Positions 37,817 to 59,340 of a DNA stretch of 64,000 nucleotides are shown here, piece after piece (the first letter of the stretch is position 1; the number at the start of each line of letters is the position of its first letter). The DNA lies in contig JABLTG010000068.1 of assembly GCA_016618085.1 (NCBI GenBank), positions 32,026 to 96,025 on the forward strand, read 5' to 3'. Below the pieces are notes generated by a model. That model made no database searches. It saw only the letters and a list, made by a program, of their open reading frames with translations, and was not told the DNA's origin. The position numbers and the translations under genes are program-made. This DNA comes from Neovahlkampfia damariscottae. Its lineage: Eukaryota; Heterolobosea; Selenaionea; Neovahlkampfiida; Neovahlkampfiidae.

Positions 37817-40071
37817 TTATTCATCATCATTTTTTAATTTTTCAACTTCTTTCATGACTTTAATCAATGATCCTTTTAGTTTAATTCCATAAGATTCAAA
37901 ATCACTTTCTGAAAGTGCAGAAATGTCATCTGTATCGATAATATCTTCAGAAATTAATTTATCATAAATAGTGAATTCTTTTTTGGTTTTGTTTGTTTTT
38001 GTTGAATCTTTTTCAATATTTTTCTTTTTTTTTTTATCTTTTATTTTTTCAAAGTCTTTTTGTATTATTTTCTCTTCTTCTTTTTCATCTTCCTCTTCAA
38101 CAAATTTTTGATAAAAAATTTTATCAAGTTTTGTTTGTTCAATCCATTCTTTTAAACTTAAAATTTCATTTTCAATCTTTGTAGGTGGATTTTTTAAATA
38201 ATTAATATTTTCATTTGGATTTTCTTTATATTTTTCAAAAAATTGTTTAAATTCATAATGACTATATTTATCTGAACATTCTTCAATAAATTTATCCATA
38301 TTTTTAAATTTTTTACAATATTCTCTGCAATACTTTTGAACAATTTCTTTTGGACATAAATCAAATCCTCTACAAATATCTTTTTGACCAGAAAGCATTC
38401 CAGTTATTAAATTTACTTCTCCTAAGAGTTTAACATTGAAAGTTTGAGTTAAATCATGATCAGAAACATCTTTTATATCCTCTAAATGATAAACTTTTTC
38501 TTTATGAAAATTATCAATATGATGTGAAAGACCTAATCTTTTTAACCAAGTTGAAATGTTAATATTGTCATCATCTTTTTTTAAACTTTCATCAATAAGT
38601 AAATGTGAATTTGAAATAGCAGCTTCTGGATTACCTTTATGTTCAACAAAATGTTTTTGTAAAGTTGCCATGGTGAAGGAATTAGAAGGAACATACTCTA
38701 AAAGTTTCTTTCCTAAATCATCTTTGTTTGGATAAAACTTGTTGAATAATTCTAAAATTTGTACTTTTGAAGCAAATCCAAAATATTTTTTGACGTCACA
38801 TCTTCCAGGTCGGATTAATGCTGAATCTAACTTTTCAATGTGATTTGTAGTCATGAAAAATAACTTTCCTTCTTGACTCGCTACACCATCAATTGCATTT
38901 AGTAAACCAGAAAATGTAACTTTCTTGACACCTGAATCTTTGGAGTCCTAAAAATTGTTAGCGTGAAAAAAAAAGAAACTTGAGCAGTATTTCTGTCAAC
39001 AAAAACAGCATCAACATCTTCTAAAACAATCAAACAACTTGAAGGAACTTCAACTAATCTTTGATTCAAAACTTGATCATCTAAATGGTTTGATGATAAA
39101 TTCAAAACACAAATGTTTAGTTTTAATTCACCAGCTAAACATTGAATAAAACCTAGAGTAAATATTCAAAATCAAAAAAAATGATTACTTGTCCTAAAAA
39201 AGAAAATGTTAAATTTTTTTTTTCGTTCTGGTCTTACTTTCCGCAACCTGGTGGACCATAAAATAAATATCCTCGTCTATATGGCAAACCCATATCTCTG
39301 TACCAATTTGAACGTGATAAGAAATCTTTTGCATCAGAAATCAATTCTTTTGATAAATTCTCATCTAAAATAACTGAACCTAAAGGTCTTGGTGGTTTAG
39401 TAAGAGCTACAGTCCAGTCAGAACCCCATTCATCAAGAATATAAATTTTTGTTTTTCCTTTATCTTTATCAACGCTTTTCTCTTTTGCTTCAATAAATAA
39501 ATCTTCAAATAATTTTTTTTCTCTTCCAAAAGATGACAATGTTATACTTTCATATATAAATGGTTTGTTGTCATATCCTTTTATTTTTTAAATTTATTTC
39601 TGAAAATTACCAGTGGTTGTGACTTTATCACTTGTATATCTGTACATCCACATCAATTGACTTTTATAAAAAAAAAGATGATACCCAGGACCAGGTAGAA
39701 ATTCTAATTGTGCATCTTCATCTCCTTTTTCATCTTCATACCAACGTTTTGGTTGTTTGGATAAATTAAGACTTAAATTTTGAGCACTTAGAAAAGCTTT
39801 GTCATCTCCAACCTGAAATTTATAAGTATGGCAATTTTTCTTTTACCCATCTTGTTACCCATTTGAATGCTTCATTTTTATTGTCAATTGTAACAGAAAT
39901 TACAAAGGAACGAATGAATAAATCATAAAGCTCTTGAGCAATATAGTATACTGAAGTGGCAATTGAACCAACAACAGCTATCCAAATAGCTCCAGTGAAA
40001 AATTGGTTGTTGGTTGGTATGACCATCCAAACAAAGAAGAAGAATTGACCAATAGATTTTTTTTGAGACAT
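37817..40071 (-). CDS. BCS1-like AAA ATPase with C-terminal SAM domains
   Basis: The N-terminus has one membrane helix (FFTGAIWIAVVGSIATSVYY) and the BCS1 region (KPPRPLGSVILDENLSKELI). The Walker A GPPGCGK is completed as GKTSFIQCLAGEL only if a 5-nt exon (39189-39193) between two introns is used. The arginine/sensor part is VTFSGLLNAIDGVAS and ALIRPGRCDVKKYF. BCS1 moves the folded Rieske protein across the mitochondrial inner membrane. Unusually, two SAM-like domains follow (ISTWLKRLGLSHHIDNFHKE; YDKLISEDIIDTDDISALSE). The extra part has no analogue in standard BCS1. ATG 40071. Confidence 0.8.
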
Positions 40072-52267: not shown

Positions 52268-52950
52268 CTAGTTTGTAAATAAGAAAATTATAAAATTATC
52301 GTTAATTTGATTCAATTTTTTCAAAATTTCATTTGTTGACATTCTCTCCATTGGATTTTGTGATAATAAATTCATCACTAATTTTCTGAAATCTTTTGAA
52401 TAACTTTGATGATCAATCAAAATTTTTCCATTTTTTAAACAATCAATATACAAAATCTTTTCATTATTATACATCATTTGATAAAAGATAACTCCTAAAC
52501 TCCAAATATCACTTTTAAATGTATGATCAGTTTCATTTAAAATAACTTCAGGAGAAATATACATTAATGATCCAAGAATAGATGATGAATATCCTTCAAT
52601 TTCTGTGTATCCAAAATCTCCAATTCTCAAAATTACATCTTCTAAATTATCTTGTTTCGGATTATAAAATATATTTTCACATTTCAAGTCAGTATGTATA
52701 ATTTGATTCTCATGAAGATAATTCAACCCTTTTGTGATTTTGCATCTTTTTCATCATTATAATCATAATCTAAAAACTGACTTATCTCTTTGTTTAATTT
52801 TTCTTTTAAATAATCCAGTAAATCATCATAAGACTCAAACATTTCAGGTGGGTGTGGATATACACCACTATCATAACGATGTTTATAATCATCTTCATAT
52901 TCAATTATTGTTAAATACCACATTATATACTTATTATATATATTAAATTC
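52268..52950 (-). pseudogene. Protein kinase, C-lobe fragment left of the element
   Basis: A kinase C-lobe: GLNYLHENQIIHTDLKCENI (HRD is HTD), GDFGYTEIEG, LGSLMYISPEVIL, and SDIWSLGVIFYQMM. Upstream, DDLLDYLKEKLN and the hinge strand WYLTIIEYEDD belong to the same gene but a one-base frame change separates the two frames. The glycine loop and ATP lysine are missing at this side and are found as a separate piece at 57.9 kb, beyond the viral element. The gene was therefore probably split by the insertion. Confidence 0.7.
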
Positions 52951-52952
52951 TA

Positions 52953-54738
52953 TTAACATCCACAAATATTTTCATTGCAATCACTACAAACAATTTTGTT
53001 GATTGGTTCTATTTTCACATTTTTGTTTTCATATTCAACTTTCAATTTTCCGATACAATCAGATGTTTCAAGTTTAATATCTCCAGAACAAATAAATCCA
53101 TCTGTATTGATTCTATAAACATCATCAATTATTTCATAAACTTCATCAAATATCATTTTTCGTCCTGCTGATGTAATAAATGGAAATATTCTGACGTAAT
53201 TAGTTTTTAAATACTTTTTCATAATTAAATGTTTCTAATAAATTATATTCCTTTGGTCTTTTCAATACATTGTCAATTACATTTACATTTACATTTACAT
53301 CATCAGTTGTTCTGTAAATTTTATGATTCTTTTCACATAATGCTCCCCATAAAATATTTAATACAATTTTCATATCTTTGTCTTCCTTTTTCCATTTGTA
53401 AGTATCTTCAACAAAATCAAAAAACAAATTGTTAGCTCATGTTGAACTATCATAAATTAATGCATTTGCTTGTCCATCTTAAATTAATTTTATTTTACAA
53501 TTCAATTTAATTAATTGCTGTTTGAATGTCAAAATGAGTATAATAATTCAATTTGTTTCTTTGGAATAATCTTTCATCAAAATCAGTTATTTCACATCTA
53601 TAAATTCTGTAATTTATTATCTCCCCAAATTCTTTAACATTTGTAAATTCACCTTGTTTTATTGGAAATGCTAACTTTTTCATTATGAATGGATACATTG
53701 AATTGAAATCATATCATTTAACATTTTTATATTCCCCTTTTGATGCATACATTAATCCACCTTTTAATGAATTTATTATCCATTTTGCTTCCAATGGTCC
53801 TATTTCATCAGCTTCATAGCATCTTGATTTTAAATAAAAATATCTTATTGCTTCTCTCTATACATATTTCTTAATAAATTTATATTTCCATTTAATATTT
53901 TACTCATTTTCTGAGCAAGAACCATATAATTATCATAATCTTCTTTTAATTGTGTTTTTGATGGAATATATAAATATTTTGATTTAATATTTCTTTAATC
54001 CATAAATTCTTTGTATGGAATTTCACCGTATTTTGTTCCGTCATAATATTTTACAACTTTGTAATCTGATGTAAATGTTCTTAATTTTTTCTCTTTTTTG
54101 TTAATTGGATTCATTAATTCAAATGATTTTTTCTTTCTCAATGTATAATGAGAATCTTTCAATTGCATATTGATGGTTCTAACATATTTGTTTTGTGATG
54201 TATATTGATGGTCCTTAACAATATTGATGTTCAAGTTGTATTTTTTTTCAACTTCTAGTATTTTGTCAATTGAAAATAAATCCTTTCTTGGAATTTTGAA
54301 ATATTTCTTAAAACTACTTGGCTGAATATTGGGGAATCTTGTAACTCCTTTTCTTAAAGCCAAAAAGAAACAATCATTTAATTCTCCTTTTCCTCTTTTA
54401 CTTGGTGAAACATCACAAACATAAATTAAAACTTCTTTCACTTTTGCTGATTTCCAGTCATAATCTCCATCATATATTTCATAAGTTGATGGGTCAAATA
54501 TTTCAATACTATCATCATCTGAATATTTAAAAAATCTTCCACTCTTATATTGCCTATTTTCGAATAAAGTTGTTATTTTTACTATTTTCTTGTCTTTTGG
54601 AAAACTTTTAAATAATTTTGGGATTGATTGTTTTATATCTTCTGTATTTGCATCTTTATTCACTGTAAATGCTAACTTTTTTATTGGGATCCAATTTTGT
54701 TTTATTTTTAAATTATTTTTCCTATCAAAATTGAACAT
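52953..54738 (-). pseudogene. Polinton/virophage-type DNA polymerase B with OTU-like N-terminus, decayed
   Basis: From ATG 54738 the first 247 residues include an OTU-cysteine-protease-like box, KGELNDCFFLALRKG, with a late His (KDSHYTL). After an in-frame TAA the polymerase follows in pieces: EADEIGPLEAKWIINSLKGG, motif A DFNSMYPFIMKK, motif B KIVLNILWGALCEK, and motif C YRINTDGFICSG. This is the layout of protein-primed family B polymerases of Polintons, virophages and related viruses. Stops of all three types and at least two frameshifts interrupt it, e.g. TGA just before motif A. All fragments are on the minus strand. Inactive. Confidence 0.8.
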
Positions 54739-54800
54739 TCTATATTTTTACTATATATTTTTATTTTTTAAGTATTTATTACATTTAAAAAAATCTATAT
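54739..54800 (-). promoter_or_regulatory. Viral promoter module before the polymerase gene
   Basis: On the minus strand the spacer has TATATAGATTTTTTTAAATG, then TACTTAAAAAATAAAAATATATAG shortly before the start codon. The same arrangement is seen before the genes at 55404, 57124 and 57560. Confidence 0.6.
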
Positions 54801-54825
54801 ACTTTAATTTTTCTTTTTTTTTTTA

Positions 54826-54975
54826 AAATTTATTAAAGGTAGAATATTAAAATTTAATTTAAAATGACAATTAGAGTATGCAAAATCAATATCTAAATCT
54901 TTTTTTGTTGTTTTAGTATATTTCTTTCATCTTTATCTGGTTTTTTACATTTTATATTGTAAAAAATGTTTTTGT
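54826..54975 (-). pseudogene. Small viral gene remnant
   Basis: The minus-strand frame reads KCKKPDKDERNILKQQKK and, after a one-base shift, DLDIDFAYSNCHFKLNFNIL. No family is recognised. It is preceded by a copy of the promoter module (54986-55028). Confidence 0.3.
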
Positions 54976-55028
54976 CTTCCGTTTTATATTATTACTATAT
55001 ATTTTAATTTTTTATATATTTTTTATAT
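54976..55028 (-). promoter_or_regulatory. Viral promoter module copy
   Basis: On the minus strand the sequence around TTTAAATATAAAAAATATAT and AAAATATATAGTAATAATAT is repeated almost base for base at 55405-55467, over about 48 bp. Confidence 0.6.
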
Positions 55029-55404
55029 TTAAAAAATTAAAATATATTTATGTTCAAACTTCCCATCCATCAGTATATGCATCTTCAAATATATCATCAA
55101 TATCAAGCCTATATTCATTTGATATATTATAACTATATTTCATTTTTTCCTTTAAATGTTCAAATCTGGATTTCATTATATTAATATATTTATTTTTTTT
55201 TATTTTCAAAGTATCTTGATAAAAACAGTCATCATAACCTGGATGATCACCATAATAAACTGTATAAATATTGTAACCAAAAATAGAACGCCAATATATA
55301 TTCTAATTTTCCAAATCTATAAAATTACTATTATATCCTATTAAATTCATAATTTCATCAACCATTTTTTTATCAGAAATTCTTACATTTCCTTCAACGT
55401 CCAT
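55029..55404 (-). pseudogene. Small viral gene with an in-frame stop
   Basis: ATG 55404 opens MDVEGNVRISDKKMVDEIMN and the same frame continues after one TAG (codon 34) as IYWRSIFGYNIYTVYYGDHP and on to KYILIF, stop at 55029-55031. The acidic end (YRLDIDDIFEDAYTD) suggests a real old gene of about 120 residues. Unknown family. Confidence 0.5.
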
Positions 55405-55467
55405 CACTATATATTATTACTATATATTTTAATTTTTTATATATTTTTTATATTTAAAAAATTAACT
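55405..55467 (-). promoter_or_regulatory. Viral promoter module before the 55404 gene
   Basis: Contains TATATAGTGATGG at the start codon and the repeated 48-bp AT-rich block that is also at 54976-55028. Confidence 0.6.
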
Positions 55468-57124
55468 TTACAAAAAATCAACAATTAAAGGTTCTTCATC
55501 TTCTTTTTCAACATTTTTGGTTTTCTTTTTACTTTCTTTTTGGATGTCTTCAATAATTTTTAGTTTAATTTTTAATTGGTTATAATTTCTTTCAAGTTCT
55601 TGATATTTAATTAATAATTCATCATATTTGGTTTTATAATTTGGTTTATTTTTGTTTTCAATTTCTGAATCTGATTCATTGTTTTCACTAAATTTAACAC
55701 CAAGTTAACAACCTTTTAATTTTTTGTATTTGAATGTTCCTTCATATCTAAGACTTTTATCTTTTAAACTATTAATTAATTGCATGCAAGTAATCAAAGA
55801 TTTTGAATTTGTTAATTTATAATATTTCATCATTTCATCTCTTCCAATTCTATCTTTTTCATCATCTGTAATAATTAAATTTACATCAATATAATCTTGA
55901 ATTATATCATTTGAACTTGTAATACATTCTTTAGTATCTTTAAAATTTTGTGTGGATTCATATCTTATTCCTTTGTAATATTTCTTTGTGTAATTTGCAA
56001 TATATTTTAGAAATGCATTTGCCATTTTAATACCTCTCATTTTTTCTTCTAAATATTTGTCTTTCAAATAAATATTATTTTCTTTTTCAACAAATTCTAA
56101 CTTGTAAGTGTGTGATTTAATACGGCGAACAACTCCAGAATCTATTTTAATGCTTGGAAGTGTATTTGCTGTAATCATAATCAAAGCATTCATTTGAATT
56201 TCTGTAACTCCATCTTGAAATAATCTTGTTGTTTGTGCTGTTCCTTCACATACAGATTTGAATAATGAATCATTCATTTTTTTATCTACCAATTCATTGA
56301 CCCATATTAATCTTGTGTGAGGTTTTTCCAGCAAAGTATTTAATATTTTATCTGCTTTTTGATTTCCTATCACAAAAGTATTAGATTTCAATTTTACAAA
56401 ATATATTCCAATTGAATTTTTTAACATTTTCATAATTGTTGATTTTCCGGACGAGTCTTTACTCAAAAGAAACAATATTGACTGGTCCATTGCTGCAATT
56501 CCACATAATGCAGTTGCTATTATTATCATTAAATAATTTTTATCATCTTTATTTGGATAAATCATACTTATTATTTCTTTTACTTTTTTCATTGAATCTT
56601 TTTTTGGTTTTTTGTAATTTCTGTCAATACAATCTGTAATTCTACAATATTCTTCTCTTTCTTTAAATTCTCCAGTTTTTAAATCAAAATATTCATTCAA
56701 AAAGTGAATTTCATTCATATGTTGTTTATCAAAATTCTTTGTATTTGTTAATTCAACTTTCAATTGAGAAAAATACTTCAAAATACTTCCATTTTAAAAA
56801 ATTGCTTCAAAACCTTTTTATAAGTTTCCAGATTGTCTTTAGAAACTTGTTTTAAATTTTCATAAGACTCTTTTATCAACAAAGATACAATATAAATTAC
56901 TTTGTTATTGCATTGTTCCTTGTCTTTATACGTTTGCTTTTTATACAATTTTAATTTTCTGTCATACAAATAAAATTCATTTCCTTGAATTATTAATGTT
57001 TTATTCAATTTTGTTAATATTATTTTTGCTTTATCAATTGCAATTTTTTCTGTAATGTGACCCTTTTTAATTCTTCATAAGTTAATAAATCTTCTTTAAC
57101 AAATTTAATATCTTTTGATAACAT
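55468..57124 (-). pseudogene. SF3 helicase (D5-like primase-helicase), decayed
   Basis: ATG 57124 gives MLSKDIKFVKEDLLTYEELK; frame changes near 57060 and 56785 lead into the long part with Walker A LSKDSSGKSTIMKMLK, Walker B LIWVNEL, and the sensor and arginine region TANTLPSIKIDSGVVRRIKS. This is the helicase of large DNA viruses, virophages and Polinton-like viruses, used with the polymerase in genome replication. The end KYKKLKGC is followed by TAA, and the same frame then continues as a coiled coil to LIVDFL (stop 55468), so the true C-terminus was longer. At least three lesions. Confidence 0.82.
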
Positions 57125-57188
57125 TTTCTATATATTAATCTTGAGATATTTTTTTAAGTAGTTTTTATATTTAAAAAATCTATATATT
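57125..57188 (-). promoter_or_regulatory. Viral promoter module before the helicase gene
   Basis: On the minus strand: ATATATAGATTTTTTAAATA, ACTACTTAAAAAAATATC and ATATATAGAAAATG, i.e. the start codon sits 5 bases after TATATAG. Nearly identical to the module at 57561-57625. Confidence 0.65.
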
Positions 57189-57560
57189 TTAAAATAAATA
57201 TACTGCATTTTCTTCAAGATTTAAATCACCATATAAAGCACATTTAAAACACCATTTATTTTGTTCCTGATTGAAATAATAATAATATATTATGGTGTCA
57301 AACAATCCATATCTACTACATATTATACGATGACCACTGTTTGGTTTGATTGTGTCATTATTATAATAATTATTTTCTTTGCCGATTTCTAGTATAGAAT
57401 CATTTCTCTTTACAATATCAATAGTATCTTTAAATTTCTTATAAGGTAAAAGCCAACAACCACGTTCATAATTATAAAAACATCCAATTTTTAATTTTTT
57501 CACTTCATTTTTATTTCCATATTTCACATTACATCTAATATAAACTTTGTTGCAATCCAT
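57189..57560 (-). CDS. Uncharacterised viral protein
   Basis: A 123-residue protein, intact frame, starting MDCNKVYIRCNVKYGNKNEV and ending LNLEENAVYLF. It has repeated aromatic/basic strands (CFYNYERGCWLLPYKKF; IIYYYYFNQEQNKWCFKCAL) and several cysteines. No match recognised. It is the only viral frame here without a visible lesion, but it is short. Confidence 0.5.
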   Translation of the reverse strand: MDCNKVYIRCNVKYGNKNEVKKLKIGCFYNYERGCWLLPYKKFKDTIDIVKRNDSILEIGKENNYYNNDTIKPNSGHRIICSRYGLFDTIIYYYYFNQEQNKWCFKCALYGDLNLEENAVYLF

Positions 57561-57625
57561 TTTCTATATATTATATATAGAAATATTTTTTTAAGTAGTT
57601 TTTAAATTTAAAAATTCTATATATT
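57561..57625 (-). promoter_or_regulatory. Viral promoter module before the 57560 gene
   Basis: On the minus strand: TATATAGAATTTTTAAATTT, AAAAACTACTTAAAAAAATA and AATATATAGAAAATG. About 50 of 65 bases match the module before the helicase gene. Confidence 0.65.
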
Positions 57626-57895
57626 TTTTTTTCTTTTTTTAACAATAGTTGAACCAATATATTTTTGACCATCTTTTATTTCAATTTTTGGTGTTTCTAT
57701 CTTTCTTAATTGATTTTTTGTGTAATTTGCTGGAATTCCTTTTAATTAATAAAATGGTGACTGCTTTGGTGCTAATATTATATTTTCAATTTTGTGGAGT
57801 TCTTCGCTCCATCTGATATCTGTTTTTCTAAATTTTGAATCAAGTTTTTTTCCAGTTGCTGGATCTATTGGACACCCATTTTCTATTGGTTCTTC
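57619..57895 (-). pseudogene. Viral gene remnant, right end of the element
   Basis: The frame reads RIEEPIENGCPIDPATGKKL, then RKTDIRWSEELHKIENIILA, then KQSPFY, a TAA, and LKGIPANYTKNQLRKIE, stop 57619-57621. I do not recognise the family. The conserved-looking stretch 'NGCPIDPATGKK' and its place beside the polymerase-helicase pair suggest an element gene. It overlaps the next promoter module at its end. Confidence 0.45.
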
Positions 57896-58292
57896 TATTC
57901 TTTAATTCTTCTTTGTATTTTTTTTAGCGCATAAATTTTTTTGTTCAATTTATTTTTGACTTTATAAACTGCTCTTTTTGAATTTGAATAAATTTGTTTT
58001 TCAAAAAAGATAATTCTTTTCATTTGAACAATTTTCGATTATTTTTAATTTTTCTTCATCTAATTTTAAATATTGATTTAATTTATTTAATTCTAAAATT
58101 GATTTTTCATTTCCAAATTTTAAACTTTCTTCAAAATAAAATTTTGATTTTTTAAAATCTTTTTTATTTCCATAAAAATTAATTTTACCCAATTGAAATG
58201 CTGCTTCACCAATCAATTTTTGTTTCTTTGAATATTTATCCATACATAAAAATAGGTATAATTTCATCTTCAGAGTATCCTTGTCTTTTCAT
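57895..58292 (-). pseudogene. Sel1-like repeats and kinase N-lobe fragment, right of the element
   Basis: Frames from ATG 58292/58243 give MDKYSKKQKLIGEAAFQLGK, NKKDFKKSKFYFEESLKFGN (Sel1/TPR-like units), and after a one-base shift VYKVKNKLNKKIYALKKIQ, which looks like the kinase glycine-loop strand and the ATP lysine. The frame stops at 57895 where element sequence begins. The rest of the kinase is at 52.3-52.95 kb, so the two pieces flank the element. The glycine loop itself is poorly conserved. Confidence 0.55.
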
Positions 58293-59340
58293 TGTAATCC
58301 AATTGAATGTAATATTTCATATGGTAAATTCTTTTGATTTAATAAATTTTGATTGGATCGAAAAGCCTGTAAAAAAAATATTGGATCTTCTTTAATCATT
58401 TTATAATTTATAAATTCAATAAATATTGAAGAATCTCTTTGAATACAATCCATTAAAATATTTTTATCTTGTTTAAATATTTCAGGTAAATGTTTTAATA
58501 ATTTTGGATCTTTTTTTAAAATTAATTTGTTGATTTCTTCATCATATTTTAATTCATCTGATATAAATTTAATGGAAAGAGGATTAGATTGAATTGCTTC
58601 TAATACAATTTCTTTGTCATTTCTTAATCGTTTTGAAACAAATTCTAATGACATTCCATCTTTTTTTACACTTGATATACAAATATCTCTATCATTTTTT
58701 AATCTTTCACTGGCAAAATTTAAAGGTAAAGATGTATTAAAGAATATATTTTTTCCTTTTGACTTTGTTGAAACTGCAGTCAATACAATATCTTTGTTAT
58801 CTCTTAATTTTGAAGAAGCATGCTTAATTGATAATCCATTTTGTTTTACTGCTTTCATTACAATTTCATAATCATCTTCAAAAAATGGTAAGTATTTTAA
58901 AGCTAATCCATTTTGTTTAATGGCTTCTGTCACAATGAGTCGATCTTTTTTGAGTTCTTCTGAAACAAAGTTTAATTTCAAACCGTTCATTTTTGTAAAA
59001 CTGTCTCACGGTCATTATTCTTTGTGTCCATCAATAACTCGAATTGTTCTTTTTTTGAAATTAAAACAGTGAATTGTTTGTTATGCATAAACCGAGAAGC
59101 AGCATATCTAGTTGAAGAAATATCTTGTCTTGATGCTTCGTATATTATTCTTTTGTTTTGTTTTAATTCTTCCGACGCATATTTGATAGTTTGACCATTT
59201 CTTTTTACTGCTTCCAAAACAATATCAAAATCATTTTTCAATTCATCTGAAGCATATTGAAGATTCCAAGGATCAGATTTTATCAATTCCATCAACACCT
59301 TTTTGTCTTCATACATCCATGTGTCATTCTGTATTTTCAT
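58289..59340 (-). CDS. DUF4116 repeat protein
   Basis: About ten repeats of roughly 24 residues such as LQYASDELKNDFDIVLEAVK, IKYASEELKQNKRIIYEASR and LEFVSKRLRNDKEIVLEAIQ. DUF4116 is abundant in heterolobosean amoebae and in some giant viruses and intracellular bacteria; its function is unknown. A 38-nt intron (about 59010) gives KKEQFDFTKMNGLKLNFVSE; without it two overlapping frames would be needed. The TGA stop overlaps the ATG of the Sel1-kinase fragment by 4 bases, so the two might once have been one gene. Confidence 0.75.

Follow-up and report, generated by a model that had tools for sequence, protein, structure and literature searches.

A probable truncated endogenous virophage with a mavirus-type replication module in a kinase gene region of Neovahlkampfia damariscottae

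A stretch of about 5 kb in the genome of the heterolobosean Neovahlkampfia damariscottae carries broken, virus-like genes, which raises the question of what kind of element it was and whether the copy is complete, minimal or only a part. The stretch lies in a window of 64,000 nucleotides (contig JABLTG010000068.1, positions 32,026 to 96,025) at one end of contig C272 (96,025 bp). The genome consists of 20.4 Mb in 307 contigs, the C-numbers used here denote contigs of this same assembly, and the G+C content of the window was 0.262. The original prediction, made from the letters alone, had described a degraded Polinton/virophage-like element, either a remnant or a minimal replicon of transpoviron size. 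Sequence comparison now indicates that the region is very probably a truncated 5.2-kb piece of an endogenous virophage (Maveriviricetes) with a mavirus-type replication module, lying inside a kinase gene.

The element had been placed at 52950..57900. It was found there, but its extent is about 52744-57911, bounded by two parts of the kinase gene (Table 1). The integrase match, obtained by tblastn, begins at 57911, the same position as the upper end of the nucleotide matches. From 57911 downwards, the minus strand carries the integrase fragment, the small open reading frame (ORF) W1, the helicase, W2, an ORF remnant, PolB and a cut small ORF, and the recognisable genes were confirmed on that strand, as predicted. 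Capsid, integrase and packaging ATPase genes had been reported as lacking; no virophage-type major capsid protein (MCP) gene was found in the fragment, but part of an integrase gene was.

Table 1. Coordinates of the element, its genes, its upstream motifs and the flanking kinase parts in the window
Feature	Position	Strand	Evidence or remark
Whole element fragment, both ends truncated	52744..57911	-	Nucleotide matches: C188 to 52744; C268, C176, C188, C69 and C217 to 57911
rve integrase, C-terminal fragment with internal deletion and 1 stop	57620..57911	-	tblastn with C188 integrase: residues 164-178, 226-308
Small ORF W1, 123 codons from ATG	57189..57563	-	Open frame; this copy only
D5/SF3-type helicase, broken (3 frames, 2 stops)	55471..57124	-	
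Small ORF W2, broken	55054..55413	-	Second occurrence in copy C106
Remnant of a further small ORF ahead of PolB	54804..54926	-	Open stretch between upstream motifs
Protein-primed-type PolB with N-terminal OTU-like domain, broken (4 frames, 5 stops)	52956..54744	-	
Small ORF after PolB, cut at 52744, frame runs into kinase	52744..52971	-	C188 match ends at 52744
26-nucleotide motif before W1	57587..57612	-	
26-nucleotide motif before helicase	57150..57175	-	
26-nucleotide motif before W2	55433..55458	-	
26-nucleotide motif before ORF remnant	55008..55033	-	
26-nucleotide motif before PolB	54764..54789	-	
Host protein kinase, C-terminal lobe	52268..52743	-	Pkinase 2.1e-27, profile positions 111-259 of 263
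Probable host kinase, N-terminal lobe	57912..58038	-	47-residue piece, weak PDB matches

All three polymerase motifs claimed earlier could be located, namely motif A (YDFNSMYP), motif B (KIVLNILWGALC) and motif C (NTDG), each in a separate open frame. The motif A piece matched the Pfam family DNA_pol_B_2 at 3.5e-7, above the cut-off. The OTU-type assignment was also supported, with the OTU-like Cys and His and the NTDG present in the window copy. A search with the C227 PolB yielded 45 metagenome proteins, of which 44 were aligned and one (P0041) was left out. Among these relatives the OTU-like Cys was kept in 39/39 and the His in 40/40 members having a residue there, while the motif A Asp and the second motif C Asp were kept in 44/44. 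The first motif C residue was never Asp in the 44 sequences (37 H, 2 N, 2 Q, 2 Y, 1 R). About 147 residues lie between the OTU-like His and motif A, too few for a full exonuclease. A profile of the family matched phi29 polymerase (1xhx, 2.8e-5). The predicted N-terminus of this PolB is an OTU-like protease domain that replaces the exonuclease. Mavirus PolB is described with a TP-vOTU-palm layout that has lost most of the exonuclease and the first motif C Asp, alongside a separate SF3 helicase (PMC11071308). The features of such a module were found here: a PolB with the OTU Cys and His and without the first motif C Asp, a separate SF3 helicase and an rve integrase.

The helicase is encoded apart from PolB. 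The helicase piece in the window matched phage primase/helicase families with a best value of 3.4e-20, in support of the D5-like SF3 helicase that had been proposed. At the P-loop the window copy reads SKDSSGKST against GKGSSGKST in the relatives, a difference at the first position of the glycine pair and at the residue beside it. The complete C188 helicase matched TIGR01613 at 3.2e-21 (75.5 bits, under the curated cut-off of 108.7), and the Pfam scores of the helicase likewise fall short of curated cut-offs. The complete C188 integrase matched PF00665 at 3.6e-8 (34.0 bits; cut-off 32.6).

Relatives of the element are numerous in the same genome. The helicase piece matched 12 other contigs, five of which carry an open frame of 556-560 codons, and the N-terminal PolB piece matched 6 other contigs; PolB is open over 611 codons on C268 and 595 codons on C227. 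With the C188 integrase, matches at 57% identity or above were found on no fewer than 17 other contigs, among them that of the window, and four more contigs gave distant matches. C188 (17,071 bp) carries on one contig a GIY-YIG-like gene, the rve integrase, helicase, PolB (interrupted by one stop), a fibre-like protein, MCP, penton, a predicted protease and a predicted ATPase. The suggested search of the rest of the assembly for copies with capsid genes was answered by C188, and its Sputnik-type MCP and penton support the Polinton/virophage-like origin. The MCP scored above the Pfam cut-off of 27 for both Sputnik_MCP_1st (37.9 bits) and MCP_V20_C (40.8 bits), and it matched PDB chain 3j26_A at 7.6e-16 as a single sequence and 2e-34 as a profile. 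The penton matched 3j26_N at 2.5e-13 over residues 12-360. Structures of the mavirus capsid are present in the PDB; the two C188 proteins matched only Sputnik chains there, and no mavirus capsid chain was among the matches. The predicted protease (190 residues) adjoins the penton and shows a conserved Cys and His by eye; it matched Peptidase_C39 at 0.0086, below the cut-off, and had no match in the PDB. The predicted packaging ATPase, an FtsK-HerA candidate, has a P-loop by eye and AAA-type Pfam matches below the cut-offs.

Matches to the C188 MCP lay at 33 places on 24 contigs. Identity was as low as 44-51% for several of them, which indicates that more than one virophage lineage is present. 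Such places, representing further virophage capsid lineages, lie on C133, C104, C274, C7, C303, C252 and others, some of these being large contigs. Published work already lists 21 virophage MCPs in the heterolobosean Neovahlkampfia damariscottae (PMC10120064), against the 33 matches counted here; since the window fragment lacks an MCP, an MCP screen would miss it. Outside this genome, four metagenome MCPs related to that of C188 were found at 49-53% identity, and no named virus closer to it than Sputnik was found in the metagenome, IMG/VR and phage-record searches. The viral contigs of IMG/VR gave no confirmed relative with the C188 MCP, the C227 PolB, PolB alignment A1, P0002 or P0047 as queries. 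In protein searches of phage records the MCP and the ATPase had no match, and PolB P0002 had only three distant ones (21-25% identity).

A terminal sequence starting near TGTGGCGGGAAGTTGT occurs at the left ends of the C245 and C226 copies and, inverted, at the right end of the C69 copy (315 nucleotides at 88.6% and 145 nucleotides at 93.1%). The terminus has the form TG...CA, as might be expected with an rve integrase. Virophages of this class are 15-45 kb long with terminal repeats; none of the copies in this genome was found with both of its ends, C188 itself being a 17,071-bp contig. The C176 (L010:1) and C69 (L014:1) contigs have their first bases in common, within the integrase region, and this suggests that the assembly broke at a repeat there. 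The broken C245 copy lies between a host gene for a guanylate-cyclase-domain protein and an enolase gene; the enolase matched PDB 7ugh_A, probably a Naegleria structure, with 556 bits, compared with 359 bits for others.

The fragment likely interrupts a host kinase gene, as judged from the flanking reading frames. Upstream of the element, from 57912, a 47-residue piece resembling a kinase N-terminal lobe could be read (AVYKVKNKLNKKIYALKKI). Among the 21 PDB sequences listed for this piece, 20 were kinases and 19 were CDK2 constructs, all with weak values (E 0.63-1.9). Judged by Pfam position and by eye, the kinase would be short of roughly 65-75 residues. A genome search for a second or empty copy of the DNA flanking on the C-terminal lobe side matched only itself. 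A DUF4116-repeat protein gene (58289-59340; first ORF 6.8e-57) shares the strand of the interrupted kinase and lies directly upstream of it. An HSP70 of the window had no match in the PDB at 1e-100.

The question of remnant or minimal replicon could be decided in favour of the remnant. A capsid-less replicon of the transpoviron or linear plasmid type, once autonomous and then dead, would agree with a window copy that holds only replication genes, some integrase and small ORFs. Both ends, however, lie within genes whose remainder is present in relatives; C188 shares the gene order, extends it to capsid genes and also carries an integrase gene and a predicted packaging gene; and the window copy is without terminal repeats whereas C245, C226 and C69 have a common terminal sequence. 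A transpoviron is moreover a capsid-less linear plasmid with a fusion of protein-primed PolB and SF1 helicase, whereas the helicase here is a separate SF3/D5 type and the relatives carry capsid genes; we consider a minimal replicon highly improbable. The breaks were counted in helicase and PolB against relatives with open frames. Nearly every frame had been described as broken, which holds for these two genes, but pieces of 358 codons (helicase), 247 codons (PolB N-terminus) and 123 codons (small ORF) are open. Several breaks in one gene might be explained by introns, programmed frameshifts or a changed genetic code; relatives at 91-94% identity, however, are open at the same places in the standard code. 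Because the relatives read through them, the breaks in helicase and PolB are not introns, and this whole explanation, hardly credible, was rejected for both genes unless the relatives differ in kind.

It is also very unlikely, in our estimate, that the copy is intact in the cell and its stops and shifts are assembly errors in repeated sequence. The decay pattern bears on this. Over the 1,077-nucleotide helicase ORF, compared with 10 copies, the window showed 93.9% identity to C268 and 88.8-92.1% to the nine others. Its private changes there fell 8/4/8 on codon positions 1/2/3, with 16 non-synonymous and 4 synonymous, while C106 and C188 together, open copies chosen afterwards, had 5 non-synonymous to 14 synonymous (Fisher p 0.0012 against the window). 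Across the whole element, the 2,893 columns with agreement among the compared relatives contained 68 substitutions private to the window copy, of which 47 were transitions and 21 transversions; 31 went from GC to AT and 21 from AT to GC. Other broken copies lean the same way (GC-to-AT to AT-to-GC: C217 40:28, C189 48:24, C226 50:10), with broken C245 even (13:12), and an AT-to-GC lean was observed in seven copies with open or nearly open helicase (C268, C176, C106, C188, C199, C69, C227), C69 and C227 being so counted although each has a helicase frameshift. The transition to transversion ratio alone is no clean test, the two counts being nearly equal in three open copies (C268 24:25, C199 18:17, C227 14:12). 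The substitution pattern speaks for genuine decay since insertion, with mutation biased towards AT, and the excess of transitions, the AT-ward changes and the codon-position pattern all stand against assembly errors; the truncation of the ends holds whatever the base errors. Some points weigh against our overall reading. The published work that lists the MCPs warns of such artefacts in such repeats (PMC10120064), the relatives are 88.8-93.9% identical and some breaks could be errors. Open C199 shows 9 private non-synonymous to 6 synonymous helicase changes, so not every open copy looks constrained. The 47-residue piece had no Pfam match, leaving the kinase N-terminal lobe weakly supported. The protease and ATPase of C188 are predicted from position and motifs by eye, with Pfam matches below cut-offs. 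The copy is dead, as claimed, with breaks in helicase and PolB; the claim that it is old is not supported, given 88.8-93.9% helicase identity to 10/10 copies and 68 private substitutions in 2,893 columns. The CpG decay count held only 2 CpG sites among those scored, and the age is relative only, an absolute date being impossible.

A truncated virophage of this family shares features with several described systems. Mavirus and the Cafeteria endogenous mavirus-like elements (EMALEs) likewise have an rve integrase, a protein-primed PolB without most of the exonuclease or the first motif C Asp, a separate helicase and insertion in coding regions, and their terminal inverted repeats would correspond to the terminal sequence common to C245, C226 and C69 (PMC11071308, PMC8547959); they differ in that MCP and penton here match Sputnik in the PDB, and in the host and the upstream motif. 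Sputnik has the MCP and penton type of C188 but is reported to replicate with a PolA-S3H fusion (PMC11071308), in contrast to PolB and a separate helicase here. Rumen virophages (RVP/RMV) also combine a virophage capsid gene with a Polinton-type PolB (PMC4409740), whereas their PolB belongs to Polinton family 2, apart from mavirus, and no penton can be recognised in them; the penton here is recognisable. With Sputnik-type MCP and penton and mavirus-type replication genes, the family pairs two module types.

A 26-nucleotide motif (TTTAAATATAAAAAMTAYWTAAAAAA) precedes genes of the element. With up to 3 mismatches it occurs five times in the window, all within the element, with 0.04 expected and 0/100 shuffles reaching 5. 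Genome-wide, at up to 1 mismatch, 29 matches were found on 11 contigs, each of which carries a gene of this virophage family (on C247 the fibre-like gene only, on C181 the integrase), and the reversed control gave 0. With up to 3 mismatches the motif was present in 13/14 mapped loci; it precedes the helicase in 10/11 copies with that junction (exception C106) and PolB in 7/7 with a PolB start. Capsid-side genes have just a short TATATA-type stretch ahead of the ATG. We infer that the motif is a promoter. The promoters of EMALEs are considered to indicate which giant viruses they go with (PMC8547959).

The slots behind these motifs vary between copies. W1, whose single genome match is itself, is absent from the integrase-helicase slot in the other 10/11 mapped copies, and in the window copy, the only one to have it, it lies between two motifs. 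Between helicase and PolB, the window copy and C106 carry W2, whereas C188, C199 and C227 have a coiled-coil-like gene there and the sequence in C268, C189 and C226 is again different; two 56-nucleotide copies around W2 are identical. This arrangement suggests, as a hypothesis from sequence pattern, that the small genes may be promoter-led cassettes exchanged by recombination. A fuller version, which we regard as rather doubtful, would be that each one-gene cassette is led by a near-identical repeat of 55-95 nucleotides serving as both promoter and recombination site, that small genes are swapped between integrase, helicase and PolB, and that the promoter is read by an infecting giant virus and not by the host. 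No description of the motif or such cassettes was found in the literature searched, as far as its text was available.

The fibre-like gene is divergent from the MCP gene (L021:905-2369, L013:7060-8268), with a very variable C-terminal half and matches at 71 genome places; its product may be a virion attachment protein. Inside the terminal repeat at the left end, several copies carry a SAM-domain gene and a P-loop ATPase gene (L020:1870-3843 on C245, L012:3-1708 on C188, L016:2-1135 on C227). Two different ATPase families fill this slot, one with weak nSTAND3/AAA_16 and PADLOC mads_8 matches; PADLOC gave this single weak match, to the P-loop cargo gene. Defence cargo is a possible role for the SAM-domain and ATPase genes. 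A host ORF of the window (37817-38854) combines a BCS1-type AAA lid with a SAM domain, a pairing that resembles this cargo.

Live relatives would integrate by the rve integrase and would replicate as linear DNA by a protein-primed PolB with the OTU-like protease domain, aided by the separate SF3 helicase, a mechanism adopted from related systems; they would pack their DNA into a Sputnik-type capsid. The window copy has lost both ends, and with them the terminal repeats, capsid and packaging genes. As the viral ends lie inside the integrase and inside the small gene after PolB, the insertion shows no integrase-made ends; because both ends are internal, the fragment may have been captured in DNA break repair, or a full insertion may later have lost both ends plus host sequence. 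Since its insertion the copy has decayed in the absence of selection.

That virophages fill protist genomes is a general phenomenon already published, and this locus is an ordinary, though well-documented, relic of a known kind; what deserves further attention is the pattern of motif and cassettes. What had looked like an enigmatic dead stretch of 5 kb can be read as a copy, dated in relative terms, from a family of endogenous virophages that has many members in a single protist genome of 20 Mb. The upstream motif, specific to this family, offers a direct handle on when the proviruses switch on, and the slots whose small genes vary while the genes around them stay fixed give an indication of how gene turnover proceeds in virophages.

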